Source: Wolfiporia cocos
Taxonomy: Eukaryota > Basidiomycota > Agaricomycetes > Polyporales > Phaeolaceae
Assembly (NCBI GenBank): GCA_029448655.1
Contig: JACCLO010000003.1
Location: 5,084,001-5,148,000 of the forward strand
Reading direction: 5' to 3'
DNA: 64,000 bases
Below are positions 17,790 through 50,551 of the stretch, in pieces. Below the pieces are notes generated by a model, which saw only the letters and a list, made by a program, of their open reading frames with translations, ran no database searches and had not been told where the DNA came from. The position numbers and the translations under genes are program-made. Every line of letters starts with the position of its first letter. Position 1 is the stretch's first letter.

Positions 17790-18885
17790 TGTCACAGATT
17801 TATCTGGGACTTACAGCATTTTTCCTACGATTATAGCAATTTACCTGGGATTTATACGTCTAACTACCAGTTATCTACGGGTTAACTCCCATTGCCACCA
17901 CGACAAGCTCTTAACTGGGCTTATCACCACATGACTAGCTTACATAACGCTACGGCACCTTCCGGTCCAATAGCATAGTTACAGCTACGTCATACAGGTC
18001 TCGCCCGTCAGAGCAAGACCAGCCACGTCATAGATCCTAGATCATAATGATAGGCCGAGCGCGGCACGCTCGCATAATAATGTCCACAAGTACAAACAGT
18101 GCCTCGCGGCCTTGTACTATTGGGTCGGCCTTCCCGGCTTCCCATCGCCATAAGATCCTAGATCACAATGGCACCTCAGGCGCGCCACGCCTTCGCATAA
18201 TAATGGCAACACGGCCAAATAGCACTATATTAGCATCAAGGCAATATCGCTATAGGCTACGGCCTTCTCGGCCTCTCACGGACTCGGCGTTCTCCAAGTC
18301 CCGGGCTTCTGCCATCACGGCGTTGCCCAAACACCGGTCCTCGCCTCACGGCTAAAGACCACCATATGCTCCGGTAACCTTCCGGTCCGGACATATCACA
18401 TGCTACGGTGCCTGCTGGCCCAATAGCATTACGACCTCGGCGTTCCGCCTTGGTCAGCACACGATGACCGGCCAATCGCCATTATACCTCACGGTATCCG
18501 GCAACCGGCATCCCTTATACCCGGGCTGCGCCCGTCTTCACATGTCCATCTAACGATGAGACCACACGCTCTCTCTTTTACCATTGGCTCGGCCATTACC
18601 GGCGGGTCACGGCCTTTGTAGAGTAGTCGTATTACTTGGTCGCCCTTATGGCAACCAAGCCCACACTCCTTATCGGGCATGCACTATACAGTAGCACATG
18701 ACCCGTTAAATATATGTATATAAGTAGGGCCTTGACGGCCTATAACTTTAGTTCTATTCTTCTCGGCGTACGCCGTAGAAGAACATTCCACCTACTACCG
18801 CGTCTGATAACCTCTACCTCACCTCGTCGCCTTAGTTCATCGCAAGGATACTGGCGTGGTGAGTCCCACAGAGCCATCTGTGTCA
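17790..18885 (+). repeat. 5' LTR of LARD-1
   Basis: 1096-bp LTR with ends TGTCACAG and CTGTGTCA. TATATAAG lies at 18717-18724 and the predicted transcript start is near 18749, leaving an R/U5 of about 135 nt. Short open frames inside are not genes. Confidence 0.95.
18749..18761 (+). promoter_or_regulatory. Predicted 5' transcript end / self-primer of LARD-1
   Basis: TAGTTCTATTCTT, about 32 nt after the start of the TATATAAG box (18717). It is the exact reverse complement of 18887-18899, one base after the LTR. Confidence 0.75.
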
Positions 18886-18886
18886 T

Positions 18887-18899
18887 AAGAATAGAACTA
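18887..18899 (+). promoter_or_regulatory. Self-priming primer-binding site of LARD-1
   Basis: AAGAATAGAACTA begins one base after the LTR end. It has no TGG start as expected for a tRNA 3'-end site. It pairs 13/13 with the predicted RNA 5' end at 18749-18761. Confidence 0.75.
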
Positions 18900-21800
18900 C
18901 CTACCCCCCTGCGCCTCCTTAACTGGTGGCGCCTGGGTTTTTCCTCCTACAGGTGTCTGAGATAGCGCAGGGGCCGCTACTCTCCTGCAAAGGGGATGTA
19001 TGCTCCGTGGTTGTGGATATGGGATACATCGGCGGCGGGCTTAGCGGCCTGCTGCCACCCAGTGGGGCGCTGCTTGCCTAATCAGCAGCATGCGTCCTGC
19101 GAACCCGGACTCCAGGGTTAAGGAGAGGCGCCGGCTTCCTGACAAGGTTGCTGGTGCCAGCGGTTGAGACCCGCCTATTGGGAAAAGGGGACCGTCTGCC
19201 TGTGTGCGCGCAACCCCCTGTCTTGGCAATCCCTGTTCAGGGACCCAACACTACCAGTAGGATCCCCATAGGGATATGCGCTTCGGCGTATTCCCTTAGT
19301 TGGGTGTGGGAATCTTCCAAAGCCGCCCCCCAGGCGTAAGGGGCCCGCTTGGGATCTCCTTCGGGGAATCCAAGTGGTGAGGCGGTGAGACTCGCAAGGT
19401 CAAGCCGGCCGAGGTCACTCGCGGTAGCCAATAGCGTAAGTCCTACGGGCAGCTCGGCGTGCGAGCCTGGGTTAAACCGAGTTGGGGCCCCACCGGAAGC
19501 ATGCGGCGTTGCCCACCATCTTTGATGTGTGGAGCGCTCGTGAATGCGCGATCTTAGATCGACGGATGGTTTTTTAGCCCTGATGTGACACCCAGGTGGC
19601 TATAGATGGCAAGCCTTACCACTAAAGCGTGGACCGGTCGCGGTGTAATACTGCGACCACTTTCCAGCTCATCTCCGCGAGGAAATGGGCTGTGTATCCT
19701 ATTCCCAACCATGTGACCCAGCCTGTCAAGCGCTGGCAGTCACCGACTCTCTTTCTAGAAGGAAGTCGCGCGCTTCGATGAAGACACCTGTCGGCTAACT
19801 TCCGCGCGGCGTCCTGACGAGGGCGCCCCTAACCATGCCCCCGTTCTTCTTGTGTTAGACATGACCACTCAGCGTTGATCGCTGATGACGAGCTCTCTTT
19901 CAGGTACCCTGGTATCCCAGTCCAAAAGTAGATAAATATGTAGTTTTAGCGGCGGCTCCTAGTAGCTTACTTACCTTGTAAAGTAGCTTAGAAACCGTCC
20001 AATAGCATTTGTATTCGCCTCTGGAAATCCTGCGTCACCTGCTGGTTCCCAGGTTATCTAGCCTGGTTAAGGTCGCCTATGTACATAAAAGGCAACCTTT
20101 ACGTCTTACGGGTACACTTAGTCAATCGAAGAACGATACTAGTACCTGTTCCCTTAGACGTAGGATCGCGTACGCTTGGCAAATATATGCTTATAACTAT
20201 CATTACTATGGGAATGCCTAAGTACCAAGTCGATTAGGATTCACATAATCCGTCGGCGCCCGTTTGACTTCGGTCTTCGCTCCTGAAAAGGGGATTCGGG
20301 TTATTGAGCATCTGTCATTTGGTCACATGTCATAAGAACCTTTGAACGGGGGCACCCCTTCCGGTAATGGAATTCCTGACAAGGAAATTACCATCCGTTT
20401 GGGAAGAGACGTCTGACAAGCGTCTATAAATAATTGGGTACAGCGCTGTTTCCACCAGCCACCCACGTACAAACAGATCGCAACAAGATTACTCCATTGA
20501 ATCTTGCAATCTGGGTTAGAGGAAAGGAAAACAAGGGACACACGCTATTGATACGCGTTCCCTTGAAGTGTAGCGGAGGCCGCAAGGCTTCTAGAATCAC
20601 ACTTCATTCGGCATTCTCGCACAATCGCCGAATCCACACCGGTTTCCAACCGGTTCCCCCCCTGTATTGAAATCGACAATTTCGCACGCCACTCGCAAAA
20701 TTCGTCACGAGGCTCGCTACCTCACCTTTGATTTCACTTCGATTCAACTTTTCTCTGTGGGGAGAATAACCGAATTCGAAAAATACACCTTAGCAAATTC
20801 AATGCGATCGTCCGCAAAAGGTCTCGAAGAAGCACTCGAAAACTTCCAGAGATAACAAGGGAGCCCCCCTTATTAGGACAATCAAGCCGATTTGGCAATC
20901 GGTTATCATTTATTTGCTTGGTTTACGGAAACCTACGCCGTCGAGACGCGTAATAAATAAACCCGGATCTGTATCCTTACGACAAGAAAGGATTACATCT
21001 CGTCACTACATCGAATATGGGCCTGGAAAACCCTTCGATTCCGACAAACTAGGGCTTGGAAACCTTAGTATAAAAATCTGGTCGCATATGCGAGCGACTA
21101 CTGGATACAGCCTTATATGGATATACGACAAGAATACCTTAGGCCCACATCCACCCACCCTTATCTGGGTATAGAGGCGGTTTAACCTCTTTAAAAACCA
21201 AAACCATCTGGATAGGTTTGATCGGGAGATCAAACGTGAAAGAGGGGGTGGAAACCCTAATTTCGCACCTAGGACCTTAACAAGTCCACTATCCCACGCT
21301 TACAAATGTACCTTACGGTCATTAAAGCAACAAACGACATGCACTAAGAGGCCTGATTACCCTCATTCATGCTCGTACTGTCCTATTCGTATATGGACGA
21401 CAACCCTGTAATAGGAATATAGTAGCTATCTATCCAATAGCGAAATATATCCTCCCCACGATCATCCCAGTTCCCACGCTTACAATGTCATACTCAATCG
21501 AAGAACGACTTTAACGACATACAAGCACATTGGAAACTACAGTCATCGCCACCACGTGACCTTAGCCCTTACGGGATATACCTTATACGAGACAACTCCT
21601 GACAAGGATGTATGTTCTCACGGTTACCCAATAAGGCCTCACTACGGCAACGACACTACAGTCTAGGGAATACAATCATAAGCATTGACCATAATGCACA
21701 ATGATTAGTACCTATGCTATGGGGTTTTACACGAGAAGCCTACTCGTTAATAAATAGTGCATACAACCACGAAGGCACAGCTTCATTCCGGAACTTACGA

Positions 21801-22738
21801 CTCCGAAGAGATCGCTACATTGAAGCAATCTAACTAGGGGACACAACCCCTGTAACAAATGGGCATTGACAAATGTCACACGCTTAGTACTTGCGATACT
21901 AGGGAGGCGACGCCTCATAAACGTTCATAAGGCGACGTCCTTTAATAACCGTTCAACCGCATAAGTCGTACAAAGTAGGATTACCCCTGTACAAGCACAA
22001 AGCCTAAGACACCCGCCACGCAAATGAAGGAACTTGCAATCCCTTTCACTGCTAGGCAATAGACGTCGAAAAAGCACCGCTATGCTACATTCAATGGGTA
22101 CTACGCATAAGCAACATATCCGCCAAAGGGCTCGAGGAGACACTAGAAAATCTCCAGAGCTAACAGTGAAGCCCTCACTCTAAGGAATATCGCACAATGC
22201 TATCCGAAACACGTACAACGACACAATGCATCCTCCAATACGCTTGGCAAGCTATTAGGAGTACAGATTACTAGTAGACTCAAAGGCACTATATGAGGAA
22301 CATTTCCATATCGCCTTCTACTACGAGTAACGTCATAAGCAAAAGCAACAATCCGACAAAGGTCGCGAAAAGGCACTTGAACACCTTCAGCGATAACAGG
22401 AGAGCCCCTCCTTCTAGGATCCGCGTGCACAATGACAATACACTCTAGTAACACGACTACAATTCCCAAACAACGGCATTTGACCTTTCGGTCATCACGC
22501 GTTGATAATCGCTAGTAACGGCATTTAGCACTTCGCTATCACGCGTTACAAATCAATAAGGAATAAAATCGCCTTCCACGCTCAGGCTCCACCACAAGTC
22601 CTGAAACTCCCATTTATCCCTGTTCAATTGACAAATTGAAGCAGCACCATAACGGCATTTGACACATCGTCATCACGCGTTATACCGCTCTTGGGACGTA
22701 CATAATGAGGAATAGTTTCATCAGGGACGATGAAACCT

Positions 22739-22751
22739 AAAGCGGGGGTAA
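22739..22751 (+). promoter_or_regulatory. Polypurine tract of LARD-1
   Basis: AAAGCGGGGGTAA sits directly before the 3' LTR, the position used to prime plus-strand DNA synthesis; the same kind of tract precedes the 3' LTRs of B, C and D. Confidence 0.75.
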
Positions 22752-23847
22752 TGTCACAGATTTATCTGGGACTTACAGCATTTTTCCTACGATTATAGCA
22801 ATTTACCTGGGATTTATACGTCTAACTACCAGTTATCTACGGGTTAACTCCCATTGCCACCACGACAAGCTCTTAACTGGGCTTATCACCACATGACTAG
22901 CTTACATAACGCTACGGCACCTTCCGGTCCAATAGCATAGTTACAGCTACGTCATACAGGTCTCGCCCGTCAGAGCAAGACCAGCCACGTCATAGATCCT
23001 AGATCATAATGATAGGCCGAGCGCGGCACGCTCGCATAATAATGTCCACAAGTACAAACAGTGCCTCGCGGCCTTGTACTATTGGGTCGGCCTTCCCGGC
23101 TTCCCATCGCCATAAGATCCTAGATCACAATGGCACCTCAGGCGCGCCACGCCTTCGCATAATAATGGCAACACGGCCAAATAGCACTATATTAGCATCA
23201 AGGCAATATCGCTATAGGCTACGGCCTTCTCGGCCTCTCACGGACTCGGCGTTCTCCAAGTCCCGGGCTTCTGCCATCACGGCGTTGCCCAAACACCGGT
23301 CCTCGCCTCACGGCTAAAGACCACCATATGCTCCGGTAACCTTCCGGTCCGGACATATCACATGCTACGGTGCCTGCTGGCCCAATAGCATTACGACCTC
23401 GGCGTTCCGCCTTGGTCAGCACACGATGACCGGCCAATCGCCATTATACCTCACGGTATCCGGCAACCGGCATCCCTTATACCCGGGCTGCGCCCGTCTT
23501 CACATGTCCATCTAACGATGAGACCACACGCTCTCTCTTTTACCATTGGCTCGGCCATTACCGGCGGGTCACGGCCTTTGTAGAGTAGTCGTATTACTTG
23601 GTCGCCCTTATGGCAACCAAGCCCACACTCCTTATCGGGCATGCACTATACAGTAGCACATGACCCGTTAAATATATGTATATAAGTAGGGCCTTGACGG
23701 CCTATAACTTTAGTTCTATTCTTCTCGGCGTACGCCGTAGAAGAACATTCCACCTACTACCGCGTCTGATAACCTCTACCTCACCTCGTCGCCTTAGTTC
23801 ATCGCAAGGATACTGGCGTGGTGAGTCCCACAGAGCCATCTGTGTCA
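22752..23847 (+). repeat. 3' LTR of LARD-1
   Basis: 1096 bp, by eye identical to the 5' copy (17790-18885). Followed by the target duplication CGGGG. Confidence 0.95.
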
Positions 23848-23925
23848 CGGGGTCACCGGACCTTCTGAGCGGAGGCGCATCTTGCGAGGGGCGAGGGGGG
23901 TGCTAACGGAGGAGGTGGAAGACAT
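23848..23925 (-). pseudogene. 5' end of element A gag, separated by LARD-1
   Basis: ATG at 23925 starts a frame (MSSTSSVSTPLAPRKMR) that reaches the LARD-1 junction at 23848 after about 25 codons. The five bases CGGGG at 23848-23852 are the target duplication also present at 17785-17789. This shows that LARD-1 landed in gag codons and not in an untranslated region. Confidence 0.88.
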
Positions 23926-24073
23926 TTTTTGTGAATCTGTTTATGACGAATGTTAGTTTCCGGTTACTCATTGTCTTAGATTCTTAAGAAGGGATTTTGG
24001 TTTGAAAGCTGCAACTTTCGTTATAGATCACAATCGCACTCTATTTCAGAGTTAAAAGATGATAGTATTTCTA

Positions 24074-24973
24074 CTATACAATCGCGAGTATATCCTCTTC
24101 TACCGAAGTAGTTGAGGGCCCTGCCACCTTGTCAGGTGGTGTTACACCGAAGGCAAAAGTAATTTGTAGCGCTACGCATTCTGCTACGATACGAGCCAAG
24201 TCCGTATGCCAATCCAAAAAGGAAATATTGCCGAGCTGTTTGCAATACTTTTTCATAATTCTCCAGTCTCTATTGGTGATCCTCCCCCGTCTCGCTCTAT
24301 CCTTTACGTTATCCACCAGGTCCTCCAATTCTACTACCATAGTATGGAAACGCATGTCGTTTCCCATATGGAAGCCTGGATAATTAGGGGGGTGGTTGGC
24401 GAGAGGAGTGAGACGAGTGAGAGTGCCTTCTAGCATGGGAATAACTTGATCGCATGCTTGGAGAGGCTTCTTCTTCCCGAAGACGAGGGAAGGGTCGAGA
24501 ATCTTGTGGTTGGTCGGAACGGGAGGTCCGGCCGCCGGGCTGGAGAGACGGAGGGCCAGTGAAAAAGTTGCTTGCTTGGCTTCCTTGGCGGCTTGTTTGG
24601 CGGCGATTCGCTTATTCAGCTTATCGCGGGCGAGCTTGAGCTTGTTGAGTTCGCGGAGTTCTATGAGGTTCTCCATGGCGGTAATGGAAGCGGCTAGCTT
24701 CTCTTCCTCTGTCCAGATGCGCTTGGCAAGTGGAACTGGTTTGGGAGGTCGAGGAGCGGGTTTCCCAGCCTCAGCGATGTGCTTTGGCATGTGGACGGGA
24801 ATCTCCCAAAGATGGAGCTTCCCGGTGTAGTCTTCCTTTACAGGAAGCGTGTATGTGACGTCCTCTGCCCGAGGAATGTCGGTGGTGTCGATGCGGCTGA
24901 GAAGGGACCGCTTCGCTGGCTTAACGTAGGGGGCAGTGGAGGAGCCACGTGTGCGACGGGTAACGCGGGGCAT
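24074..24973 (-). CDS. ORF1 of element A: extra protein upstream of gag
   Basis: A complete frame between leader and gag. ATG codons at 24997 and 24973 are both possible; the second (MPRVTRRTRG) is preferred because ORF1 of element B also starts with M-P and a basic run. The protein (about 300 aa) has a basic N-terminus, a Lys/Arg/Glu-rich helical middle (ELRELNKLKLARDKLNKRIA) probably forming a coiled coil, and a C-terminal part with VVELEDLVDNVKDR and NRDWRIMKKYCKQ. That part aligns loosely with ORF1 of B (LVTDFDDLSTHLEQR, NEDLRRLEKYLRR). I know no such protein in standard Ty3/gypsy organisation. A packaging, chaperone or regulatory role would be a guess. Confidence 0.75.
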   Translation of the reverse strand: MPRVTRRTRGSSTAPYVKPAKRSLLSRIDTTDIPRAEDVTYTLPVKEDYTGKLHLWEIPVHMPKHIAEAGKPAPRPPKPVPLAKRIWTEEEKLAASITAMENLIELRELNKLKLARDKLNKRIAAKQAAKEAKQATFSLALRLSSPAAGPPVPTNHKILDPSLVFGKKKPLQACDQVIPMLEGTLTRLTPLANHPPNYPGFHMGNDMRFHTMVVELEDLVDNVKDRARRGRITNRDWRIMKKYCKQLGNISFLDWHTDLARIVAECVALQITFAFGVTPPDKVAGPSTTSVEEDILAIV

Positions 24974-24997
24974 GATTCTAGAAAGTGCAGCCTTCAT

Positions 24998-26018
24998 GAG
25001 AAACGAAGTTTCCCAGTGATACGTCCAAGAACAGGAATAAAAGGGATTAAGTAAGGTAGGGTAGTGGACTCCTTTTCAGGAGCAAAGAAGGTGTACTACG
25101 GGGCATAATTACTCTTATGTTGCGCGCAAACCCTGTGCCGAGACGGCGCGGATATTCGCATGACCCTAACGGTCAGAGGCGCCGACTCCAGGGGTAGAGT
25201 TGCTGACTGCCAGGCCGGTTCCTGGGTCAGATGATTGGGATTCGGATACACGACACCGCCCCGGAGGGACGATGCCGGAAAGTGGCTGGGATTTTACATC
25301 CCTTAGCCTGTCCATGCTTCAACAATGAGGTTGCCGTCTATAGCCACATGGGTGTCACATCAGGGCTAAAAAACCACCGTCGATCTAAGATCGCGAGACA
25401 GCAGCGCTCCACATCCCGAAGGAGTGGGCCACGCGCTTCTCTTCCAATGGGGCCCCAAATCCGTTTGACCCATGCTCGCACGCCGAGCTGCCCGGAGGAC
25501 TTATGCTATTGGCTACCGCGAGTGACCTATGGCAGGGTGATTTTTTACGTCACCCCCCTCACTGCTTTTCCCATAACGGGTTCAAAGCAGGTCCCTTACG
25601 CCTGGGAGGCGGCTTTGGAAAATTCCCATGCCATCATAATGATGGCCCTATGGATAGTGATGGGGCGCTGAACAACGCTTGCCATGACAGGGGGTTGGGC
25701 GCACACAGGCAGACCGTCCCCTTTTCTCCACAGGCGGGTCTTAACCGCGCATAGTCCAAGCTTGTCAGCGAGGACCATGTCTCCTTGACCCTGGAGTCCG
25801 GGTTAGGTAGGCCTCCTGCCTAAAAAGGCGGTGTGGCTTCCCTGGTTGCCAATCCTCTGCCAAGGATGGCGATGTATCCCCCAGATCTCAACTATCACCC
25901 CAATCGCCTTGTCAGGCAGAAAGGGATGTGCGCAGCAACGAGCAATATACCCCTGTAGGATAGAAACCCAGGCCCAAGCGCAAGCGCAAGGGCGGGGGTA
26001 GGGGGAGATTTGTTCTTA
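24998..26018 (-). other. Long 5' leader of element A
   Basis: About 1 kb between LTR and ORF1 without a convincing coding frame. Large blocks are shared with LARD-1, including GGTCACTCGCGGTAGCCAAT, GATCTTAGATCGACGG and the 16-nt hairpin CTCCAGGGTCAAGGAG (25781-25796 on the minus strand). A second hairpin with loop TGAAAA is at 25069-25084. Conservation of non-coding RNA between an autonomous and a non-autonomous element suggests packaging or translation signals. Confidence 0.7.
26006..26016 (-). promoter_or_regulatory. Self-priming primer-binding site of element A
   Basis: On the minus strand AGAACAAATCT follows the LTR end closely (the LTR ends at 26019). It pairs 11/11 with AGATTTGTTCT at 26141-26151 in the same LTR. 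Confidence 0.7.
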
Positions 26019-26710
26019 TGACACAGACTAGACTGTGGGACTCACTCTATAACCTAATAAGCGACTTGAAGGAGTTGCTGGAGGTTGGTGAGGAGGCTAG
26101 TGGGCGCAAGCAGAGATGATATGTAACTGTGCGAATGCAGAGAACAAATCTAAGGCTTATCGTAGCGATAGCCCTACTTATATACATGCATTGTTTGGTT
26201 ACCAATAAGGGAGCCAAACATGAAGACGGTCTGTGCGCAGACATAACTAATACAGCTAAGTCGTAAACTACAGTAGACCATGTGCGCCGGTAATGGCCGC
26301 ACCAGTAAGAAACAGTGTTTGGACCGTGGGTCCGTGTTGTGGAAGTGGCGTTGCTACGTTAGTAAGCCATGCACGTGATAACTATATACCGGTATCGGGA
26401 TATGAGTAATACTAAGGACATTTGGCATGTAATAACGAGCGGGCCGCTTATCCAATTGTACTGACATAGCCCGATATCGGGATATGAGTAAGACGCGTGA
26501 CACCGGAGGTTAATCCGCTGAGTCATTGACGCGTACAAACGTGTTATGTACGTGTTGTTATGACAAGTGGACGTATACCGTGTTGCGTTGTTTGGTTGCG
26601 TGTACGTGTAGACGGGCGCTTAACAGCGTAAATGTCTACAAGGTCGTAGAAATACCAGATAAATAGGTAAAAATACGGGAAAAATAGTGGCATGTCCCAA
26701 ATCTGTGACA
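26019..26710 (-). repeat. 5' LTR of element A
   Basis: 692 bp, minus strand, starting TGTCACAG (26710) and ending CTGTGTCA (26019). Partial copies occur at 42485-42738 (plus) and 61828-62212 (minus). A 35-bp non-LTR gap separates it from the B LTR at 26746. Confidence 0.88.
26141..26184 (-). promoter_or_regulatory. TATA box and predicted RNA 5' end of element A
   Basis: On the minus strand TATATAAG starts at 26184, and AGATTTGTTCT starts 33 nt later at 26151. The latter is the predicted self-primer. Confidence 0.7.
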
Positions 26711-26745: not shown

Positions 26746-27364
26746 TGTCACAAGAATTCTCCTAGTTTCCCTATATTTCTTACTATTTTTCCGGCAATTC
26801 TACGAATTATCTACGACTTTCTAGGCCAATAACTAGCTTATCTGGTTCATAAGTTAACGGTTACATACGTGCCGAATGATGGCCGCGTTATCTCCCGTAA
26901 CGACGGTCTTATCTTATCACTAGTAGTTACCATCAGTCACATGTCTAGTTCTAGCCAATCGGACATTCCGTCTGGAAGCAGTCAGCGTATAAACGTCAGC
27001 GGACCGGGCTTGGGTCACGCCCCGTCTTTGTCATGACAAGAGCGCAAAACGCTATTCGTGCGGCCTACGCCGCCTTTCTATATTCCGGTATTGATCGGTA
27101 TATGTATTTATCGTATATTACTAAGTACTTAGGTACCTGGGGACTTGTACATACGAATACAGACACTGGTATTATCTAATAAGGCTGTTAGGGGTCTTAT
27201 TTATCATGTATATATACTGGACTTGCTGAGCGCTATTGCCTCAGTTCTATTCATTGCATTCATACTACGAGTTAACCACTCAACGTATCCTGCTTAACCA
27301 CCTGCTTATCTCTTGCCTAACCAGCAAATACCAAGATCTATCAAGTAAGTGTTATCTTGTGTTA
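26746..27364 (+). repeat. 5' LTR of element B
   Basis: 619 bp, TGTCACAAG to CTTGTGTTA (ends TA where CA is usual; the same end is seen in the three other B LTRs here and is confirmed by the target duplication of the solo copy at 57879). TATATATA is at 27209-27216. Confidence 0.93.
27209..27254 (+). promoter_or_regulatory. TATA box and predicted RNA 5' end of element B
   Basis: TATATATA at 27209 and AGTTCTATTCAT at 27243-27254, 34 nt downstream. The latter is the predicted self-primer. Confidence 0.72.
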
Positions 27365-28063
27365 TATGAATAGAACTCGCTTTCGCCCCCGCCCTCTTTG
27401 AGGGTCTGGGATTTTTCTTCTTAGGGGTTTTCGTCGCCGTCTGCGCACCCCTGCTCGCCGACAGGCAGCGGGGTATCCTTAGTGGGCTCTGGGGGATCAC
27501 CGCCTTCGGGCAAATAGCCGGACCGTAGGCTTAAGCGGAACCGGGGACTGGCTGTCAAGCCTTTCCCCATATGTTGGGAATCGATGGCAACGGTGTAACG
27601 TCTTGACCGGGCCGGAGACGACCTTCTCGCCTATCCCCAGGCGTACAGGGGCCACTCTATTTAGAGTTGGGATGGTGGGCACGAGTTGCCCTGCCTAGAA
27701 CCGCTGCCGATACGGCTTCAGAACGATAGAGTTCTGGCCTTGGCGCCCTCTAAGTCCCTCAGGGCATGGGTTTGGTTTAAACACTGGCAGCCACCTAACT
27801 GGAGTGAGGCGTGGGCACATGCGGGGTGTAATACCCCAAATCCTGCATTCCCAGGCGTCAAGGGAAGACGACCTGCTGTATCCCCCACCTGGTAGCGTGA
27901 GAGAGACGCCATCCAGTCGCCGACACTAACTCCGGTCGAGGGCGGAGCGCCCATTGACGCCGGAGGATAAGCGCACGACACCTCAAGAAGCGACGATAAG
28001 CCCCGACAGAAGACCGCGTGATTTCCACTAGAATAGCTTACTTAGACTTCTTTTTACGTAGTC
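27365..28063 (+). other. 5' leader of element B
   Basis: About 700 nt without a convincing gene between the primer site and ORF1. It is not obviously similar to the A/LARD-1 leader apart from position and GC-richness. Confidence 0.6.
27366..27377 (+). promoter_or_regulatory. Self-priming primer-binding site of element B
   Basis: ATGAATAGAACT, one base after the LTR, is the exact complement of 27243-27254 (12/12). Confidence 0.75.
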
Positions 28064-28879
28064 ATGCCGAAAGCACCACGTTTCACGGTTACTCCGAGAA
28101 ACGCCGCTACGGGGGAGCGCGAGGAATGGCACATTGCCTCCTCTAAATCGCTCGAAGACCGCATATCCGCGGTCACAGCCCCAAAGCGAGGAAAGTCCCA
28201 AAAGGGCAAAGACGTCTTCTACAGGAAGCCGAACCCCGACCCGGAGGAGATCCGAAGGGTCAACCACGAGGCCGCCCTCGCCGACATCAGGCGGAAGAAG
28301 CTCAACAAGCTTCTCCGACAGAAGGAGAAGCTCGAGGCTCGGATCCAGAAACAAAGCCTGGATCAGCTAATCGCCGAGGCAGCCAGGAAGAGGGTTGAGG
28401 AAGAGAGAATGGTGAGGAGTCTTCGGGAGCGAATCGAGCCCCCAAAGAAGTCGCTGTTGGAGAGAGTGGAGGAGCTTAGAATGCCGGCCGAGTGGGTCGA
28501 GAAACGGGGTCTTCCGAACCCCAGGGACGTCCACTGCACGGAGAAGAAGTGGGAATGGTTCTTGGACGTCGACAAACAGATGAACGCCGCCCACAAGAAC
28601 CTTTTCCGGCTATGGAAAGTCCCCGACGCAACCACCACGGCCCCCATCATAGCAAAATTCACCACTCTCGTCACCGACTTCGACGATCTCTCCACACACC
28701 TGGAGCAAAGGGTCCGTCAGGACTCCATGAAGAACGAAGATCTCCGCCGCCTCGAGAAATATCTCAGGAGGGTGGAGCACGTTTTTGGGGATCTAGACGT
28801 GAAGAAGCACGCTACATACTTAAAAACACACTTAGTACATAGCGGTCTCAACTTTGACCTTGGCAAACCCCAGCTGTAG
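28064..28879 (+). CDS. ORF1 of element B: extra protein upstream of gag
   Basis: A complete 271-codon frame from ATG 28064 (MPKAPRFTVTPRN). Basic N-terminus, then a strongly charged helical region (RRKKLNKLLRQKEKLEAR), a Trp-containing segment (CTEKKWEWFLDVDKQ) and a C-terminal helical part (IIAKFTTLVTDFDDLS, NEDLRRLEKYLRR) that resembles the end of ORF1 in element A. It ends 150 nt before the gag ATG; that gap holds three copies of TCCTGAAAAGG. No domain is recognised. It may act before or with Gag, but that is only inferred from position. Its frame is intact although pol of the same copy is broken. Confidence 0.8.
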   Translation: MPKAPRFTVTPRNAATGEREEWHIASSKSLEDRISAVTAPKRGKSQKGKDVFYRKPNPDPEEIRRVNHEAALADIRRKKLNKLLRQKEKLEARIQKQSLDQLIAEAARKRVEEERMVRSLRERIEPPKKSLLERVEELRMPAEWVEKRGLPNPRDVHCTEKKWEWFLDVDKQMNAAHKNLFRLWKVPDATTTAPIIAKFTTLVTDFDDLSTHLEQRVRQDSMKNEDLRRLEKYLRRVEHVFGDLDVKKHATYLKTHLVHSGLNFDLGKPQL

Positions 28880-29031: not shown

Positions 29032-31257
29032 ATGGTGTCATACACAATCGTCCAAGGCGCTTTGTACAACACCCACAAGGTGGCTACGGCCTACCGCCCC
29101 GCCATCGGCAAGCACGCGTGGCCCGGAGAGCAGACCTGCTTGATGGACTACCTGCGAGTCGTATTCGGCATCAGAGTTAGGGGGAGTGTAACCTCCTTCA
29201 ACTCAATTCCGGCGCATGTGCGCCCATTCCTGAACGTGAACCATACGGCGTACATCAAGTACTACGGGGAAGATTCGACTAGGAACCACATTTCGTGGTG
29301 GAGGTGGGACAACTACTGTACCGCCATCCCCCTAGCGGACCTCATAGTCTACTACGGTGACGTCCACTGGTACTCACAGGAAGAAGCGTCGCCACGCACG
29401 AGAGCCGCCAGGCTTTTCAACCCGGAAACACCCGCACGCCGAGCAGTCGTCACCCCCGAAGGCAGCGAGACTCCACGGCCGGAGGAACCAGTCAACACGG
29501 AGCCCCTATTTGGGACGCTCCCCGATCTCCTCCCCTCCTATGAAAGGGGAACCCTGGAAATAGTCGCGCAGCCGGAAAGGAGCGAGAACGAATTGACGGG
29601 AAGGCTGCAGCGCACTCTGGAAGTGGCCGCCTCAGACGAAGTTCTGCAGGTGGGAAAAGAAGCTTACAGGGAGGCGCTGTACCAAGCCAAAAATCACCTC
29701 TACAGCAACCTCGCGGCATACAAAAGCCGGGTGGACACGAATTTGGAAATGGTCTGGAATAAGACCAACCAGATTCGGAGTCACAACCAGGTGCTTCAAA
29801 ATAGAATCGAAGCACTAGAGGAAGCAGAGGGTTTGCGGCAACAATTGGATACCCTTTCCGAAAACCGGTTCGTCCGCATAGAAAAAGACATTGCAGTACT
29901 GCAAAAGCGTCCGGCAGTCCCAACCGCGGGACCCAGCGGTGCCCAGGTCACGGCACTAATTAATAGAATCGACCAACTCGAAGCGGAGTTAACCGCTCTA
30001 AAAAACGCACCAGCAGCCGCGACAGCAGCTGCCACAACGGTCAACTTCCAACAGACCAAACCGACGCAGCCGCCCAAATTCTCGGGCCCTAAGGATAGCA
30101 TCTCATCAAAAGAGTGGATCCAAAAAATGGGCATGTACTTCGCAGACGCCAAGGTGACACTCGAGGAGGACAAGGTTCGCCAAGCCCTGCTGCGGCTTAC
30201 GGGCGAGGCCTACCAGTACATGTCACCGGTAGTTGATAAAATTGCCGCCGGACAAGCCTCGGGGCACACCTGGAAAATGTTTGCGGAGGTGTACGGCAAG
30301 AAGACGGATAAGGAAATTGCCGAAAAGGAGATTGAAGGGTACTTCGGAGATGAAGGGAAAAAGAAGCTCCAATCGGACTTCTTTTCTTGGGCACAGAAGC
30401 TCAGGACCCTGGCTCGTCTGGCCGAGACTGACAACAAGACGTTGTTCAGTCACATCAAACGGATCCTCCCGGAAAAGGTGCGAGAGACCCTCGCTACCTT
30501 GGAATCGGTCCCCGGCTTTACAATGCCGACCGACTGGGAGATATACCTCGATATGGCCATTGACCTCTATAAGAGGCAATACCCGGACAAGCTCAAAGGC
30601 AAAATCTTTGAGGAAGAAAAGAGGAAGGAGTCGTCGGGGTCTGGCAAGACCACCGACAAAGCTACGTCGAAGCCTGCCAAGGCTGATGACAAAGGCAAAG
30701 GCAAGGCAAAGGAAACCGGCTCTTACGGGAAGGACTGTCGCAAGCACCCCGGACAACACAAATGGGGTGACTGTCCTGAGAACCCTAAGAACAAGCCGAA
30801 GGAAGCCAAGCCAGCCAGTGGTGGAAGCGGAACGACGAAGCCGACAGGCTCGTCGAGCGGAACGCAACAGTCGGGCCAGAAGAAATTGGACCCGAAGAAA
30901 AAATACAAGGTCCGAGTTGTCAGCACCCAGGAACTGGTGACTGACGACGAAGATGAGTCCCCCCAAGCCACCGTAGGGACCATCCGGACCAACGTTCCGA
31001 ACCAACCAGAGGTGGTTCCTCTGGCCCCCACTACGCGCATCAGCGATGAGGAGAAAAGCGGGAGCCCGGTGCGATCGGCAGAAAGCACCAGCCCCGTCCA
31101 GACCCAGTCGACTGGTTCGACTTCGACTGCGCCTACACCGTTGGGCGACTCCATCAGGACACATCTGCCCTGGCTTCGCAAGCGGATAGCCGACTCCGCA
31201 AACACCCTGGGCATCTACGGAAGCTCTGCCTCGGGTTTTCTCACCGAGCACATGTGA
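29032..31257 (+). CDS. Gag of element B
   Basis: Starts ATG 29032 (MVSYTIVQGALYNTHK), the first in-frame ATG after a stop-free lead. The N-terminal domain contains SWWRWDNYCTAIPLADLIVY, followed by a long coiled-coil region (about residues 190-300), the gag domain (KEWIQKMGMYFADAKVTLEE) and a Lys-rich linker. The nucleic-acid-binding motif is CRKHPGQHKWGDC (C-X2-H-X3-H-X4-C), a variant knuckle unlike the CCHC of element A. Compared with the B fragment at 42739-43574 it lacks a few codons just before EVYGKKTDKEIAEK. It ends TGA 31255-31257, overlapping the pol ATG (TGATG). Confidence 0.9.
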   Translation: MVSYTIVQGALYNTHKVATAYRPAIGKHAWPGEQTCLMDYLRVVFGIRVRGSVTSFNSIPAHVRPFLNVNHTAYIKYYGEDSTRNHISWWRWDNYCTAIPLADLIVYYGDVHWYSQEEASPRTRAARLFNPETPARRAVVTPEGSETPRPEEPVNTEPLFGTLPDLLPSYERGTLEIVAQPERSENELTGRLQRTLEVAASDEVLQVGKEAYREALYQAKNHLYSNLAAYKSRVDTNLEMVWNKTNQIRSHNQVLQNRIEALEEAEGLRQQLDTLSENRFVRIEKDIAVLQKRPAVPTAGPSGAQVTALINRIDQLEAELTALKNAPAAATAAATTVNFQQTKPTQPPKFSGPKDSISSKEWIQKMGMYFADAKVTLEEDKVRQALLRLTGEAYQYMSPVVDKIAAGQASGHTWKMFAEVYGKKTDKEIAEKEIEGYFGDEGKKKLQSDFFSWAQKLRTLARLAETDNKTLFSHIKRILPEKVRETLATLESVPGFTMPTDWEIYLDMAIDLYKRQYPDKLKGKIFEEEKRKESSGSGKTTDKATSKPAKADDKGKGKAKETGSYGKDCRKHPGQHKWGDCPENPKNKPKEAKPASGGSGTTKPTGSSSGTQQSGQKKLDPKKKYKVRVVSTQELVTDDEDESPQATVGTIRTNVPNQPEVVPLAPTTRISDEEKSGSPVRSAESTSPVQTQSTGSTSTAPTPLGDSIRTHLPWLRKRIADSANTLGIYGSSASGFLTEHM

Positions 31258-34200
31258 TGACCTGCCCACTTGTGCTCCCATGTAACTTTAGTCCCGTACC
31301 CGCTGTAAAGAGTGTATTTGAGTCAATGTATCATATTTTTGGCAACGATGCGCGCGACTTCGCTCGATCTTTTCGTGTCGAAGTAACACTCTGGGTATAT
31401 GGGCAAAAAGTGCAGGCTCTGGCTTTAATCGACAGCGGTGCAACCATATCGGTCATATCACAACGATTGGTCGATAAACATAAGCTGGTCACCGACAAAC
31501 TAGCGTTTCCCATTACGGTTACAAACGCAGACGGAACAGAAAACGTCGCCGGCCGCTTAACGCAATCAGTAAAAGCATTCATGCAACATGGCACACACAA
31601 GGAAAAAATAGGTCTGACGGTCATGCACCTAGAACCAGACCTAATCCTTGGCTATGACTGGTTGCGTCTCCACAATCCCACCTTTGATTGGAGGAAAGGA
31701 GAAATGGAATATGCACGCTGTACACATGACCAACCGTACGCCAGAAAAAAGGGTAACCGCCCTTCTGAGGAGGAATCAGTGGAACTCCCAGAAAAGGAAA
31801 TCATCGAAGTAAATTCGATTTGGGACACTCCCGTGGACATATTAGGAGAGGAGGACCCCGAAAATCCTTTGATCGCTTGGGTGGCAACCCTTGACGACGA
31901 GGAAATGAACCTGCTGACACAGTTGGTAGCCGAGGTACTTGACAAAGACCTCGACGAAGCAGACGACCGTGAGGAAAACACACCACCGATTGACATTGAA
32001 AAATGGCGATCGTTAGTGCCCGAACAATACCAAGAGTATGGGCCAACGGTGTTCTCACAAAAGGCGTCAGAGAGGATGCCGGAACGGAAGCCCTGGGACC
32101 ATGCCATAGTGCTTGAACCAGATGCGCAGCTTCCTCCCCCGGTAAAACCATACAAAATGTCTCCCCAAGAGCGTAATAGCTTGGATGAGTGGATAGACAC
32201 CGAACTACGGAAGGGTTACATTCGACCGTCCGAAAGTCCGATGGCATCCCCAGTCTTCTTCGTCCACAAAAAGGACGGAGGACTGCGGATGGTTGTCGAT
32301 TACAGGAGGCTAAACGAAATAACCGTGAAAAATCGTTATCCGATACCTCGGATCGATGACCTAATCGATCAATTGTCCCATGCGACCATCTTCACCAAAA
32401 TAGACCTTAGATGGGGATACAATAACGTCCGCATCAAAGAAGGTGATGAATGGAAGACGGCGTTTATCACACACCGTGGACTATACGAGGCAACGGTAAT
32501 GTATTTCGGTTTCTGCAATGCCCCCGCAACGTTCCAAGCGATGATGAATTCAATCCTCGCACCGTTCATTCGTACCGGCAAGGTGGTTGTCTACCTAGAC
32601 GACATCTTGATCTTCGGGAATGATATGGAGGAACATCGGCGACTTACCAAAGGGGTTCTCCAAACCCTGAAGGACTCGGACTTGTATGCGAAGCCCGAAA
32701 AGTGCTTTTTCGAACAGTCTTCCATCGAATACCTAGGAATGATCATTTCCGACGGTAACATCATGATGGATCCGAAGAAGTACGCCGGAGTTCAGGACTG
32801 GCCTAGACCTAATAAGGTCAAAGAGGTTCAAGCTTTCCTTGGATTCGCCAATTTCTACAGGCGATTCATAGAAGGTTTCTCAAAAATAGCCAAACCACTC
32901 ACCATGCTGACCAAAAAGTCAGAAGCTTGGCATTGGGACGCCGAGCAGGAAAATGCCTTCCAAACCCTAAAGGAAGCATTTACCAAAGCGCCCGTGCTTC
33001 GAATTCCGTCGCACGATCAGCCTTTCCGCGTAGAAACAGATGCGTCAGACTTCGCTACCGGAGCAGTACTATCTCAGTTAGATCCTACGGATAAAAAATT
33101 CCACCCCGTGGCGTACTATAGCAAATCGCTAAGTGCCCCGGAAAGGAACTACGAGATCTACGACAAGGAAATGTTGGCTGTCATCAGGGCTCTAGAGGAG
33201 TGGCGACACTACCTAGAGGGACATCCTGAAAAATTCGAGATATGGTCGGATCATCTAAACCTGACCTATTTCAAAACGGCGCAAAAACTGACGAGACGAC
33301 AAGCCCGTTGGGCACTGTACCTCTCACGCTTCAACTTCCAAATGAAGCACAAACCTGGCAAAACAATGCTAACCACGGATCCTCTGTCCAGGCGGCCAGA
33401 CCATGAGGAGGGGGTGGATCTCGATAATCGCGATCAGGTTCTTCTGAAACCTGAGTGGTTCGAGCAAGAGTACATGGCAATGGCTCTTGATACCTCCCAT
33501 GCTGCCCCACAATCAGAAGACGAATCGATACTCCGAGAGATTCGCAAAGCGTTGCTAGACGACAAGGTCACAAAAGACTACAAGGAGCTGCTCTCGTCCG
33601 GCCCTCGTGAATTCAAAAGACCTATCAGAATGGAACTACGAAGGAGGGTTACTCCTCCGAAGAGGCAAAGTCTACGTTCCAGCTACACCAGCGGATATCA
33701 GACGGCAAGTGGTCGAGTATCATCACGATCACAAGTCAGCTGGGCATTTCGGACGCTACAAAACGTACGAATTGCTAAGCCGCAACTATTGGTGGCCCGG
33801 AATGTTCGTTTACGTCAAAAAATACGTAGACGGATGTGACACATGCCAATGTATGAAGAACCACCCGCAGAGGCCGTACGGCCCCCTGCAACCCTTACCG
33901 GTGCCGTCAGGCCCGTGGGAAGTGGTGACAATAGACCTGATTACTCAGCTACCCCCATTGGGAATGCATGACGCAATCATGGTCGTAGTGGATCGGTTGA
34001 CCAAAAGAGCAAGGTTCTTCCCAATAGAAAACACCTTCTCAACGAAAGACCTAGCTACGATACTCTATCAAAAGGTGTATCCCTTACATGGGTTGCCGAA
34101 ACAGATAGTATCGGACAGAGGAACACAATTCGCCTCAAAACTATTTGGTTAATGGTGCACCCTGCTAGGAATTCAAAGGTCGATGACTACTGCGTACCAT

Positions 34201-35681
34201 CCGCAGGCAGACGGACAAACTGAACGAGTGAACCAAATACTCGAACAGTATCTACGGTGCTACATCAACACGTACCAAAAAGATAACTGGTCGGAGTTCC
34301 TGCCAACAGCGAAATTTGCGTACAATAATGCAGCCAGCGAAACTACCAAGGAATCTCCGAACCTGGTAGAATTAGGTCGTCACCCTATTGCAGGACCAAG
34401 CAGTTTCGAACCAAGTCGAAACAAAGACTTAGTAGAAATTGCGAACACGCGGTTCTCTGCACAAGAGAAAGCTAAGGCAGCAATGAAAATTGCAGCCGAA
34501 AGATGGTCCTGGTACTATGACCAAAAAAAGCAAGTTGTTCCCTTCAAAGTGGGCGACAAAGTACTCGTGGACGTGCGGAGTTGGCAAGACACCGAAAGGA
34601 GTCTAGCCCCTCGCAACATCGGCCCATTCCGAATCACGGAAAAATTGGGACCGGTAACGTTCAAGGTGTACATGGATGCACAATATAGGGCTTACCACCC
34701 TGTGTTCCATGCTTCGAAACTGGTCATGTACAAGGAATCAACCATCGAAGGTCAGAAAAGTCACCCTCCTGCGGCTGACAAGCCAACGGAAATGGAAGAC
34801 CCGGAAAAATGGGAAGTGGAAGCCATTCTCGACCATCGTAACCGACGCGGCCGGTGGGAATACCTTATCCATTGGAAAGGCACTGGACCTGCGGAAGACA
34901 CATGGGAAATCGAGGAACATTTGGCCAACGCTAAGGAGATTCTGGACGAGTACAAGGCAAAATATTCAGCCCTTAGTACCGACCCAAATCAACCCCTTCG
35001 CCGATCAACTAGACTCGGCGGAACACGGCAGACTGTAGCCGTCTTCGACCCTGACTCGCCAGATTGGGACTCAGACACGTGTGTCTGGCCCGATGATTGG
35101 CCCCAATATCAAGACAATGTCGACCCTACACAACCGAAAGTGTACTACAAGCGCGACCCCTTTACAGGGCAATGGGTACATTCCGACGTTGAATTCAACG
35201 AAGACTTGGAAATCGAAGTAGGAGTCAATGGCCAACTACCGACCAGGGGAACAACCGATGCGATCGGCTATGATCTATATGCCGCGCAGGATATCCTAAT
35301 TAATTCATGGAAATCCGCCTCGGTCCCCACAGATATTCGTATCAAAGTTCCTTATGGACATACGGTCGGATAGCGCCAAGGTCTGGACTTGCAAAAAAGG
35401 GCATCGATGTCCTCGCAGGTGTAATAGACCATGACTACCGCGGAGAAGTCTTTGTCATGTTGATGAACCTCACTGGAGACCCGTACCAAGTAAAGAAAGG
35501 CGACCAAATTGCTCAGCTAATCTGCGAAGTAGCGATCACACCCGAAATACAGGAATCCATGACCAAGGAGAAGTTCGAGAAAGAAATTCGACCTCACCTA
35601 CATGGAAGTGGACCCTACAACGAGCAGTTCAACAAGCCAACCAAGCGCGGTACACAAGGTTTTGGATCGACAGGACGATAA
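31257..35681 (+). pseudogene. Pol of element B: protease, RT, RNase H, integrase, chromodomain, dUTPase (disrupted)
   Basis: The ATG at 31257 overlaps the gag stop. Domains in order: protease ALIDSGATISVIS; RT with MVVDYRRLN and VYLDDILIF; RNase H (VETDASDFATGAVLSQ); integrase with HHCC zinc segment (HHDHKSAGHFGRY, CDTCQCMKNH) and D-D-E residues (VTIDLITQLP, VSDRGTQF, E in TERVNQ); chromodomain (WEVEAILDHR, YLIHWKGTGPAEDTWE); then a trimeric-type dUTPase ([51 protein letters not shown]). Lesions: a frameshift near 33600-33625, an in-frame TAA at 34150-34152 inside integrase, and a frameshift near 35345-35350 inside the dUTPase. All domains remain readable across frames. Confidence 0.92.
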
Positions 35682-35758
35682 AAGTGGAAAAATCGTAAAG
35701 ACTAACCCTTCGATGGGCTCTAGCACAACTTCTACTCTCAACGGGGTCGTTGAAATCT

Positions 35759-42445: not shown

Positions 42446-42484
42446 TCGTTCCATTAGGGACAATGAAACCTGAAGAGGGGGTAA

Positions 42485-42738
42485 TGTCACAGATTTGGGA
42501 CATGCCACTATCTTTCCCGTATTTTTACCTATTTATCTGGTATTTCTACAACCTTGTAGACATTTACGCTGCTAAGCGCCCATCTACACGTACACGCAAC
42601 CAAACAACACGTACACAACGCGGTATACGTCCACTTGTCATAAAAACACGTACATAACACGCTTGTACGCGTCAATGACTCAGCAGACTAACCTCCGGTG
42701 TCACGCGCTTTACTCATATCCCGATACCGGGCTATGTC
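42485..42738 (+). repeat. Truncated A-type 3' LTR of element C
   Basis: Begins TGTCACAGATTTGGGACATG as in the 5' LTR of A. It stops after GGGCTATGTC, where the sequence switches to reverse-strand B gag. Confidence 0.88.
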
Positions 42739-44179
42739 GTCCTGAGCTTCTGTGCCCAAGAGAAGAAGTCGGATTGGAGCTTCTTTTTCCCTTCGTCTCC
42801 GAAGTACCCTTCAATCTCCTTTTCGGCAATTTCCTTGTCCGTCTTCTTGCCGTACACCTTCTCGATTGTTTCCAAGAACGTTTTCCATGTGTGCCCCGAG
42901 GTTTGTCCGGCGGCAAATTTGTCCACTACCGGCGACATGTATTGGTAGGCCTCGCCCATAAGCCATAGCAGGGCTTGGCGAACCTTGTCTTCCTCGAGGG
43001 TCACCTTGGCGTCTGCGAAATACATGCCCATTTTCTGGATCCATTCTTTCGACGAGATGGAGTCTATAGGGCCCGAGAATTTGGGCGGCTGAGTTGGTTT
43101 GGTCTGTTGGAAGTTGACCGTTGTGGCAGCTGCTGGTGCGGCTGCTGGTGCGTTTTTTAGAGTGGTTAACGTTAACTCCGCTTCGAGTTGGTCAATTCTA
43201 TTAATTAGTGCCGTGACCTGGGCACCGCTGGGTCCTGCGGTTGACACTGCCAAACGCTTTTGCAGTGTAGTGATGTCTTTTTCTATGCGAGCGAATCGAT
43301 TTTCGGTTAGGGTATCCAATTGTTGCCGCAAACTCTCTGCCTCCTCTAGTGCTTCGATTCTGTTTTGAAGCACCTGATTGTGGCTTCGGATTTGGTTGGT
43401 CTTATTCCAGACCATTTCCATATCCGTATCCACCCGGCCTTTGTAGGCCGCGAGGTTGCTGTACAGATGGTTCTTGGCTTGGTACAGCGCTTCCTTGTAA
43501 ACTTCTTTTCCCACCTGCAGGACTTCGTCTGAGGCGGGCCCTTCCAGGGTACACTGTAACCTTCCCCTCAATTCTAACACAAGATGACTTGTAATGATCT
43601 TGGGATTGCTGGTTAGGCAAGAGATATAAGCAGTTGTTAAGCAGGATACGTTGAGTGGTTAACTCGTAGTATGAATGCAATGAATAGAACTGAGGCAATA
43701 GCGCTCAGCAAGGCTAGTATATATACATGATAAATAAGACCCCTAACAGTCTTATTAGATGTCCGTATTTGTATGTACAAGTCCCCAGATACCTAAGTAC
43801 TGAGTAATATGCAATAAATACATATACCGATCAAAACCGGGATATAGAAAGGCAGCGTAGGCCACACGAATAGCGTTTTGCGCTCTTGTCATTACAAAGA
43901 CGGGGCGTGACCAGAGCCCGGTCCGCTGACGTTTATACGCTGACTGCTTCCGGACAGAATGTCCGATTGGCTAGAACTAGACATGTGACTGATGGTAACT
44001 ACTAGTGATAAGATTAGACCGTCGTTACGGGAGATAACGCGGCCATTATTCGGCACGTATGTAACCGTTAACCTATGAGCCAGATAAGCTGGTTATTGGT
44101 CTAGAAAGTCGTAGATAATTCGTAGAATTGCCGGAAAAGTAGTAAGAAATAAAGGGAAACTAGGAGAATTCTTGTGACA
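42739..44179 (-). mobile_element. Recombined B fragment: LTR plus gag piece
   Basis: Minus strand: a 605-bp B LTR (43575-44179) joins directly to a B gag fragment (43574-42739, from GRLQCTLEG to SWAQKLRT), missing leader, ORF1 and gag N-terminus. Flanking pentamers differ (AATTC and CTTGG), so this is not a simple insertion. The gag fragment keeps codons (FLETIEK) that the complete B copy lacks. Confidence 0.88.
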
Positions 44180-49263: not shown

Positions 49264-49616
49264 GGTGCGTTGATCCGCTATATCTATATCTCGACTTTTG
49301 CTGTGCAGTGTATGCATATATTTTCTACACTCTGCTAGTCTGTTTGCGGTCGTGATGGGTACGCACGCTAACTTCACGGTGGTCACTAGGTCCACGAAGT
49401 GGAGGAGTTTGGCCTCGCGCGACATTTCCAATCAATATGTCATACGAGACGTCGTTAGATCTGGATCTTGGTAATACAAGCACAGTATTAGTATTACCGC
49501 TCTGCCGCTGGGAACCTGTATGCACTAAACATAATTGATGATTTCTCTTCCTACTCTTGGTCCATCCCTCTGCCTTGCCTTCCAAATAGTGATGTGCAAA
49601 GCACGGCTCAAAGCCG

Positions 49617-50539
49617 TGTCACAAGCCAACTTCAAAGCCTAGTAGAACACCCTAGGTTGACACCCCATTCACGCCATAAGCACGCTACAGCACTCTATCC
49701 GAGCCCAGCTGGAATCCTACGGCAACGCTAGTAGAAGCCCTCCACTATACAGGACACTACGGGCACTAGCAGGCCACCAGCAGTCTAACCCTAGAACTCA
49801 GTCCAAGTCCCGGCCGCAAGTCATACACGGCCTAGTCCCTAAACCCCGGAGTCACGAGCCGACCCCTAGAGTCCAACAGGCTACAATAGCACGACGGTAC
49901 GCCTGGTACAACCTTCAGGCTAAACCACCACCGCACACTATGCTGTACGCCAACTAGGGGCACGGTCTACACTCACACGTGACCCAGAACATTAAACCTA
50001 ACACCTCGCGTCCCCACCGCACGGACACTCGCCATTACAGGCATAGACATTATACTATACCTCATACGCACCCTAACCTACGATTACACCAGGCAGGGAT
50101 AATAACCCCAGGCTCTGCACGACTGAGAACCCTACCAGTCACAGAGCGCCATACCCGATCGTGGCAGACCACGCCCGATCACGGACTTAGAACCCCGCCA
50201 TTACCGGCGCATCCACGATCGACGAGAACCACCGATCGAACCCGACAGATTGGCTACTCCTTAGATCCGCCCCTTATACGCTACGTCGCCATGGACATCA
50301 GCGCTCCGATGCCATTACCGGCACATAGCTCATAGCCAGTTAGATACCAGTACGTAGAGGCCTCTGAGCCACCGTACACAAACATGTACAAATAGTTTAG
50401 GAGTATATATGCCGGACAGTCTTGAGCGTAAACCTCAGACTTGTCTTGGCCTTTTGTGCCTTGAGATGCCCGGACCAGGAAGGCGCTTTCATGCGACCCA
50501 CCTTCCCCCGGTGTGTGTCTTGAGGTTGCGCTTGTGTCA
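49617..50539 (+). repeat. 5' LTR of LARD-D
   Basis: 923 bp; TATATAT from 50404; predicted R/U5 of about 100 nt. Confidence 0.95.
50404..50447 (+). promoter_or_regulatory. TATA box and predicted RNA 5' end of LARD-D
   Basis: TATATAT at 50404 and AGACTTGTCTT at 50437-50447, 33 nt downstream. Confidence 0.72.
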
Positions 50540-50540
50540 T

Positions 50541-50551
50541 AAGACAAGTCT
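50541..50551 (+). promoter_or_regulatory. Self-priming primer-binding site of LARD-D
   Basis: AAGACAAGTCT, one base after the LTR, is the exact complement of 50437-50447 (11/11). Confidence 0.75.

Follow-up and report, generated by a model that had tools for sequence, protein, structure and literature searches.

Matched 5′ LTR words and primer-binding sites suggest self-primed reverse transcription in LTR element families of Wolfiporia cocos

Tf1 of the fission yeast Schizosaccharomyces pombe, together with Tf2, is the founding member of the self-primed Tf1/sushi chromoviruses, and self-priming as a mechanism has been known since the 1990s. Here we analyze a stretch of 64,000 nucleotides (nt) from the 64.4-Mb assembly of Wolfiporia cocos, hereafter the window, in which four families of long terminal repeat (LTR) element (LARD-1, element A, element B and LARD-D) carry a word inside the 5′ LTR and its exact complement just past that LTR. 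The comparisons below indicate that these elements very probably prime minus-strand DNA synthesis with the first 11–12 nt of their own RNA.

In Tf1, the first 11 RNA bases are complementary to the binding site and RNase H cuts between bases 11 and 12 (PMC7175516); the RNA folds into a ‘pretzel’ made of the primer duplex and two further duplexes involving site-adjacent sequence (PMC10085805). The elements Tj1, Tosmo1-3 and Tcry1 of other fission yeasts each pair their own 5′ end with a matching site of their own, and the pretzel is a possible fold for every one of them (PMC10085805, PMC4600332). For Tcn1 of the basidiomycete Cryptococcus neoformans, self-priming has been proposed, as for Tf1/sushi elements (PMC7175516). 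Plant elements of the Tcn1 and TAR clades are predicted to self-prime by a complement of at least 10 bp lying 0–5 bp past the 5′ LTR (PMC6317226), and a Tcn1-like element of a spikemoss showed evidence of neither transfer RNA (tRNA) priming nor self-priming (PMC2864245). No report of the present families was found in the literature on self-priming elements within our reach, which excludes most subscription papers. In the window, at least 10 nt just past the 5′ LTR are complementary to a word of that LTR in 4/4 families.

A word and its complement in four families

The preliminary description of this DNA reported four exact pairs whose words differ between families yet match within each, and the letters bear this out: word and site are exact reverse complements in LARD-1, A (minus strand), B and LARD-D (Table 1). 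The placements it gave also hold. The site begins 1 nt past the 5′ LTR in LARD-1, B and LARD-D and 2 nt past the inferred LTR end in A, and the distance from the first T of the TATA box to the A that opens the word is 33 nt (34 in B), within the 32–34 nt described. For LARD-1, the 13 letters at 18749-18761 and 18887-18899 are indeed complementary, but the conserved pairing is 12 nt: the base before the A (a T) is variable, in 36% of 44 copies, and the A that would pair with it (site nt 13) is invariant. Element A has no intact 3′ LTR within the window; placing its LTR end at ..GTGTCA, which leaves the 2-nt gap, fits the point directly past which the sequence diverges in 2 of 37 occurrences among the fetched loci.

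An inverted-pair scan of the window (at least 10 nt, 70–300 nt apart, low-complexity filter applied) gave 14 pairs, and only the four claimed ones have a TATA box 20–42 nt upstream. In 40 first-order Markov shuffles, scanned for pairs of at least 11 nt lying 60–300 nt apart, TATA-preceded pairs averaged 0.025 with a maximum of 1, against the 4 observed.

Table 1. Positions in the window of LTRs, paired words and sites, covarying stems and coding frames; A(+1) is the first base of the word
Feature	Position	Strand	Remarks
LARD-1 5′ LTR	17790..18885	+	1096 nt; 3′ LTR 22752-23847, 100% identical (self-alignment)
LARD-1 flanks			direct repeat CGGGG of 5 bp, identified by eye
LARD-1 TATA box TATATAAG	18717..18724	+	33 nt before A(+1)
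LARD-1 self-primer word AGTTCTATTCTT	18750..18761	+	putative transcript nt 1-12; 18749 outside conserved pairing
LARD-1 primer-binding site AAGAATAGAACT	18887..18898	+	1 nt past LTR
Element A 5′ LTR	26019..26710	-	3′ limit 26019 (..GTGTCA) inferred from homologues and two fetched occurrences
Element A TATA box TATATAAG	26177..26184	-	33 nt before A(+1)
Element A self-primer word AGATTTGTTCT	26141..26151	-	
Element A primer-binding site AGAACAAATCT	26006..26016	-	2 nt past inferred LTR end
Element B 5′ LTR	26746..27364	+	3′ LTR 35772-36390, 97% identical (self-alignment)
Element B TATA box TATATATA	27209..27216	+	34 nt before A(+1)
Element B self-primer word AGTTCTATTCAT	27243..27254	+	
Element B primer-binding site ATGAATAGAACT	27366..27377	+	1 nt past LTR
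LARD-D 5′ LTR	49617..50539	+	923 nt; 3′ LTR 56546-57468, 100% identical (self-alignment)
LARD-D flanks			direct repeat AGCCG of 5 bp, identified by eye
LARD-D TATA box TATATA	50404..50409	+	33 nt before A(+1)
LARD-D self-primer word AGACTTGTCTT	50437..50447	+	
LARD-D primer-binding site AAGACAAGTCT	50541..50551	+	1 nt past LTR
LARD-D U5 stem	50478..50506	+	GGAAGG 50478-50483 with CCTTCC 50501-50506; covaries across D and D′ copies
LARD-D hairpin directly downstream of site	50560..50581	+	GGGGAG/CTCCCC
Element B frame	31050..33839	+	Pfam RVP_2, RVT_1, RT_RNaseH: protease, reverse transcriptase, RNase H
Element B frame	34153..35373	+	Pfam SH3_Tf2-1, chromodomain, start of dUTPase domain
A-type element frame	40223-42445		Pfam integrase core, chromodomain, SH3_Tf2-1, dUTPase

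Mirrored changes, further families and genomic copies

The preliminary description took compensatory divergence among the four words as evidence for pairing. As put, this does not stand: LARD-1 is homologous to A (73.6% across 658 nt of leader, with a common TATATAAGTAGGGC block and U5 end), and the four words are therefore not four independent inventions. The argument recovers its force when related families are compared, including two, D′ and E, from outside the window. Of the word differences, 8/8 are mirrored in the site, at positions 3, 5 and 7 between LARD-1 and A, at 3, 4, 9 and 10 between B and E, and at 6 between LARD-D and D′, so that the double changes keep complementarity. Of the family pairs behind these comparisons, D/D′ and LARD-1/A are strongly related and B/E moderately so. 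Changes at positions 3, 6, 7 and 8 are also mirrored between D′ and a further family, F; these are kept apart because the surrounding DNA gives no significant alignment, and homology of the stretch is weak and not established.

D′ and E came from the flanking DNA of 68 fetched loci (223 kb), on which the inverted-pair scan was also run. D′ aligns with LARD-D with one mirrored change. Some 4.5 kb past its 5′ LTRs are reverse transcriptase matches whose open frames reach about 2,300 aa, so D′ looks like a coding relative of LARD-D. Family E is probably related to B (E-value 6e-5 for the best match after masking), and 12/12 of its junction-spanning matches pair. We further took 20 of 150 listed RVT_1 places, with frames of 2,050–2,347 aa and differing scores, several known D′ being skipped. 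These comprised 13 perfect D′ pairs, 2 D′-type pairs with one G.U, 3 members of family F (perfect once extended) and 2 places with no junction in the stretch, where another insertion is apparent. For F, the first fetched stretch stopped at the word, and a forecast of the site was recorded before more was fetched. The forecast AAGTTCAGACT, 1–2 nt past the LTR, proved exact at 3/3 loci, 1 nt past ..TTGTCA; the spacing forecast of 90–140 nt was wrong, the actual value being 68. The signature of TATA box, word, LTR end and complement has thus found further families and forecast one site.

Alignment of family copies, which the preliminary description had proposed as a check, agrees with conserved complementarity over the part of the genomic copies that was covered. 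Among copies taken from 40 listed matches per family, word and site are unchanged in LARD-1 (28/28), A (30/30), B (30/30) and LARD-D (20/20), with variation only beside them. With related and later-found copies added, pairing is perfect in 160 of 167 copies from eight families or subfamilies: 44/45 in LARD-1, 30/32 in A, 30/30 in B, 20/20 in LARD-D, 14/16 in D′1, 7/9 in D′2, 12/12 in E and 3/3 in F. The 167 include the window’s own LARD-1, A and B (L001, L009, L039) and exclude L113 and L129, which lack the site. Seven copies are imperfect (L109, L110, L130, L185, L188, L202 and L205), and in three of them (L130, L202, L205) a G.U pair is kept; L109, L110 and L130 were fetched by patterns requiring an altered site. 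L188, with a D′-type word and a D-type site, and L205, with a D-type word and a D′-type site and G.U kept, are by their letters mixed states between the D and D′ codes. Across the eight reference families or subfamilies, the pairing is 11–12 nt long, the word and site are 68 to 137 nt apart, and A(+1) lies 32–35 nt past the TATA box in 8/8.

Pattern scans for other sites following (T)GTGTCATAAG returned few loci. One gave two matches, of which L109 is an A copy with one unmirrored change and L110 (C35:44720-45120, minus) is a lone divergent LARD-1 relative whose word and site are both changed and pair only with a one-base bulge; L110 is either a decayed copy or a step between codes. A search based on it returned mostly LARD-1-type subfamilies with the same word (19 of 40 listed matches fetched). 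Another scan matched L130 only, an A copy with G.U, and a third gave three matches (L214-L216), none with an LTR/site junction carrying a good complement. An 8-nt match at the place of the site in L215 was taken as chance. L214 (C12:4374723-4375052) has a TATAAAAG box followed by the start-word-like CCTTAGAACTATTCAC, with no complement in the 330 nt fetched, and is possibly a further family whose LTR end lies beyond the fetched piece. A 13-nt pair in L023 (549/836) was set aside as an LTR-start motif meeting its own copy.

The RNA fold was assessed in D and D′ by a covariation alignment of 30 distinct rows and 25 named pairs. Cells are paired in 97.9% against 85.0% in shuffles, and the covariation score is 0.308 against 0.087 (standard deviation 0.010) in shuffles, none of 500 reaching it, and at most 0.144 in slid controls. 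The U5 stem and the downstream hairpin each show two-sided change in 4/6 pairs. In D′, the hairpin reads GTTCTG/CAGAAC, GATCTG/CAGATC, GCTCTG/CAGAGC, GTGTAG/CTACAC or GCTTAG/CTAAGC. The D rows of this hairpin are apparently one column off relative to D′, and such a shift would account for the 11 cells of pair 136-151 that are unpaired. Pairing is predicted between the LTR end and bases past the primer, the U5 stem covaries, and the downstream hairpin is local rather than paired with the LTR. In single-sequence folds, the primer duplex is in the best fold of 5/5 leader pieces (z −2.5 to −5.4), the LARD-1 and A pieces stopping 2 nt before the end of the paired site.

Self-priming and its alternatives

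A Tf1-like reading, as put forward in the preliminary description, draws support from the position of the pair at the LTR edge and its TATA distance, from the mirrored changes, from the D/D′ fold and from the F forecast. We propose that transcription would begin at the A about 33 nt past the TATA box, and that the RNA 5′ end would fold back to pair with the primer-binding site 1–2 nt downstream of the 5′ LTR. The fold would include the U5 stem and the hairpin past the site, which covary in D/D′ and are predicted elsewhere. By analogy with Tf1, the element’s RNase H would cleave after nt 11–12, and the freed 3′ end would prime synthesis into U5 and R. Word and site would then change together because pairing is required. 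The Tf1 primer is reportedly kept; were the same true here, the site of a new copy could be written from the primer.

Several observations weigh against self-priming or soften its support. First, most copies are the top of match lists obtained with queries that contained word and site, so that the sample favors intact copies; four imperfect copies that were not chosen for altered sites are present, L185 and L188 with an A.C mismatch and L202 and L205 with one G.U each. Second, word and site show zero divergence in 5 of 6 families tested, and this is not specific to them: zero divergence is also found in 45–82 of 195–229 comparison windows, those of word and site included. A Fisher test compared word and site (10/3824) with the remaining positions (1369/31822), on sites and copies that are not independent. 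Given this non-independence and the many equally invariant stretches, we rejected low within-family divergence as proof and do not use it. Third, that the word’s A(+1), about 33 nt past the TATA box, is the transcript 5′ end is something we infer. Fourth, two of the five measures taken on the D/D′ alignment rise only weakly above shuffles: two-sided pair changes number 9 against 7.3 in shuffles (16/500 reach this) and pair types 16 against 14.8 (116/500), and within the primer duplex two-sided change occurs at 1 of 11 pairs only. Fifth, the B fold stands out least from its shuffles (z −2.52), 3 of 200 being equally good. Finally, the LARD-1 word can pair with the B site at 10 of 11 positions, and self use may therefore not be strict.

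Among the alternatives, the one that survives best, though we hold it improbable, is that the 5′ fold is real and serves packaging, dimerization or translation while another primer is used. Retroviral leaders have several roles, and pairing alone does not demonstrate priming; however, no other candidate primer site was seen at the primer-binding position, which is where the partner lies, and the partner is as long as the primer of Tf1, 11 nt (PMC7175516).

That word and site form an inverted repeat kept as DNA, for instance as a protein, integrase or regulatory site, seems slightly less probable still. Inverted repeats are common as protein sites, and LTR ends also carry short inverted termini. 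Against this, the upstream word lies 32–35 nt past the TATA box and the downstream word 1–2 nt past the LTR end in 8/8 references (LTR ends taken from LTR pairs or match limits in LARD-1, B, D and E, and inferred in A, D′ and F), the spacing varies over 68–137 nt, G.U is found in 3 of the 7 imperfect copies, and nearby stems covary as RNA would. We rejected a DNA repeat on its position at the inferred start and LTR edge, its variable spacing and its G.U copies.

Priming by a host tRNA, through its 3′ end or an internal fragment, with the 5′-end match being incidental, is less probable again. The search for matching tRNA 3′ ends proposed in the preliminary description was run on 40 of the 49 tRNA genes listed (63 candidates scored of 2530; the rows left out were 7 scoring the same as a fetched row and the last two), a number that limits the test. 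Over a 25-nt stretch from the LTR end, with both strands compared and CCA added, the longest exact match is 8 nt in LARD-1, 7 in A, 8 in B and 9 in LARD-D, and the three best matches per site never reach the CCA end. As the preliminary description had noted, no site begins with TGG; indeed, TGG is absent from the first 8 nt of all four window sites. On the matches to these 40 genes, and on the site following the LTR word through 8/8 changes, we rejected tRNA priming.

Chance complementarity, chosen by a reader scanning many places, has a negligible probability and was rejected: spaced inverted pairs of at least 11 nt are not rare (10 in the window; shuffle mean 6.4 over both strands, about 3 distinct), but 0.025 TATA-preceded pairs were expected against 4, and the F site, written down beforehand, was exact in 3/3 loci.

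Within self-priming, a question of greater interest is whether such private words limit priming where non-coding elements depend on borrowed enzymes. Each family, the enzyme-borrowing non-coding LARDs included, might keep its own matched primer/site code, a suggestion that we regard as rather doubtful. It is similarly doubtful, if conceivable, that this code drifts by paired changes, the T-A to C-G change between LARD-D and D′ being an example and a G.U copy a possible bridge. Between the LARD-D word and the D′ site, 10 of 11 positions match, plus one G.U. Were the private-word idea true, priming would be cis- or family-restricted even with enzymes in common, and self-priming would be a specificity system under which parasites borrow proteins without cross-priming.

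Element context and comparison with known systems

The four LTR families of the window have common near-inverted termini, TGTCACA..TGTGTCA (TGTGTTA in B; 17790, 26710, 26746, 49617 and the LTR ends). GGGGGTA(A/C), probably a polypurine tract, precedes the 3′ LTRs of LARD-1, B and LARD-D. Ty3/gypsy pol with an integrase chromodomain is present in the coding families, B and A-type, and the best solved relatives of the B reverse transcriptase by sequence are Ty3 reverse transcriptase chains. In LARD-1 and LARD-D, none of the frames of at least 150 aa is a pol frame, a Pfam scan of their interiors not having been made, and this comparison therefore does not apply to them. In both coding families a dUTPase follows the chromodomain, matching nearly the whole model in 40223-42445 (E-value 4e-32) and partially in 34153-35373; LTR elements of basidiomycetes have been reported to carry dUTPase (PMC2864245). 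Both A (24074-25075, minus) and B (28046-28879, plus) have a separate frame with no Pfam match between the 5′ LTR and the gag-like frame.

Element A (13752-26710, minus) is interrupted by LARD-1 (17790-23847), with A-type frames on either side (24074-25075 and 15877-17799), and its end lies close to an array of 44-bp tandem repeats at about 12470-13730. The region 26746-44179 is one of nested or recombined insertions: the flanks of the B LTRs do not match (cataatcc before, cgccgccg after), near 36391 the B 3′ LTR borders internal sequence of an A-type element, and a B LTR in inverted orientation, accompanied by a gag-like piece, lies at 42739-44179. A piece of a Ty1/copia-like frame (SH3_retrovirus) adjoins a B LTR at 58720-59658.

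Self-priming as read here is an established mechanism, and the observation, which is well supported, is real and convincing. On strong comparative grounds, it would add LARD-1, A, B, D, D′, E and F to the self-primed elements, seven LTR families from a single genome, of which two are apparently non-coding. The eight mirrored positions between related families are natural double mutants, which would otherwise have to be built by genetics.

Like Tf1, these elements have an 11–12 nt word, the putative RNA 5′ end, complementary to the site and, in the coding families, a chromodomain integrase and Pfam SH3_Tf2-1. They differ from Tf1 in words, LTRs and host, in LARD-1 and LARD-D showing no pol frame, and in B ending in TA rather than CA. 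The approach is not new, as the same kind of comparative argument was made for the fission-yeast elements; Tj1, Tosmo1-3 and Tcry1, however, come from several species, whereas the present families belong to one genome. The prediction for plant elements of the Tcn1 and TAR clades applies one rule, and the accessible part of PMC6317226 contains no covariation or fold test. With Tcn1, the present families have in common a proposal of self-priming for a basidiomycete element, a likeness by description.

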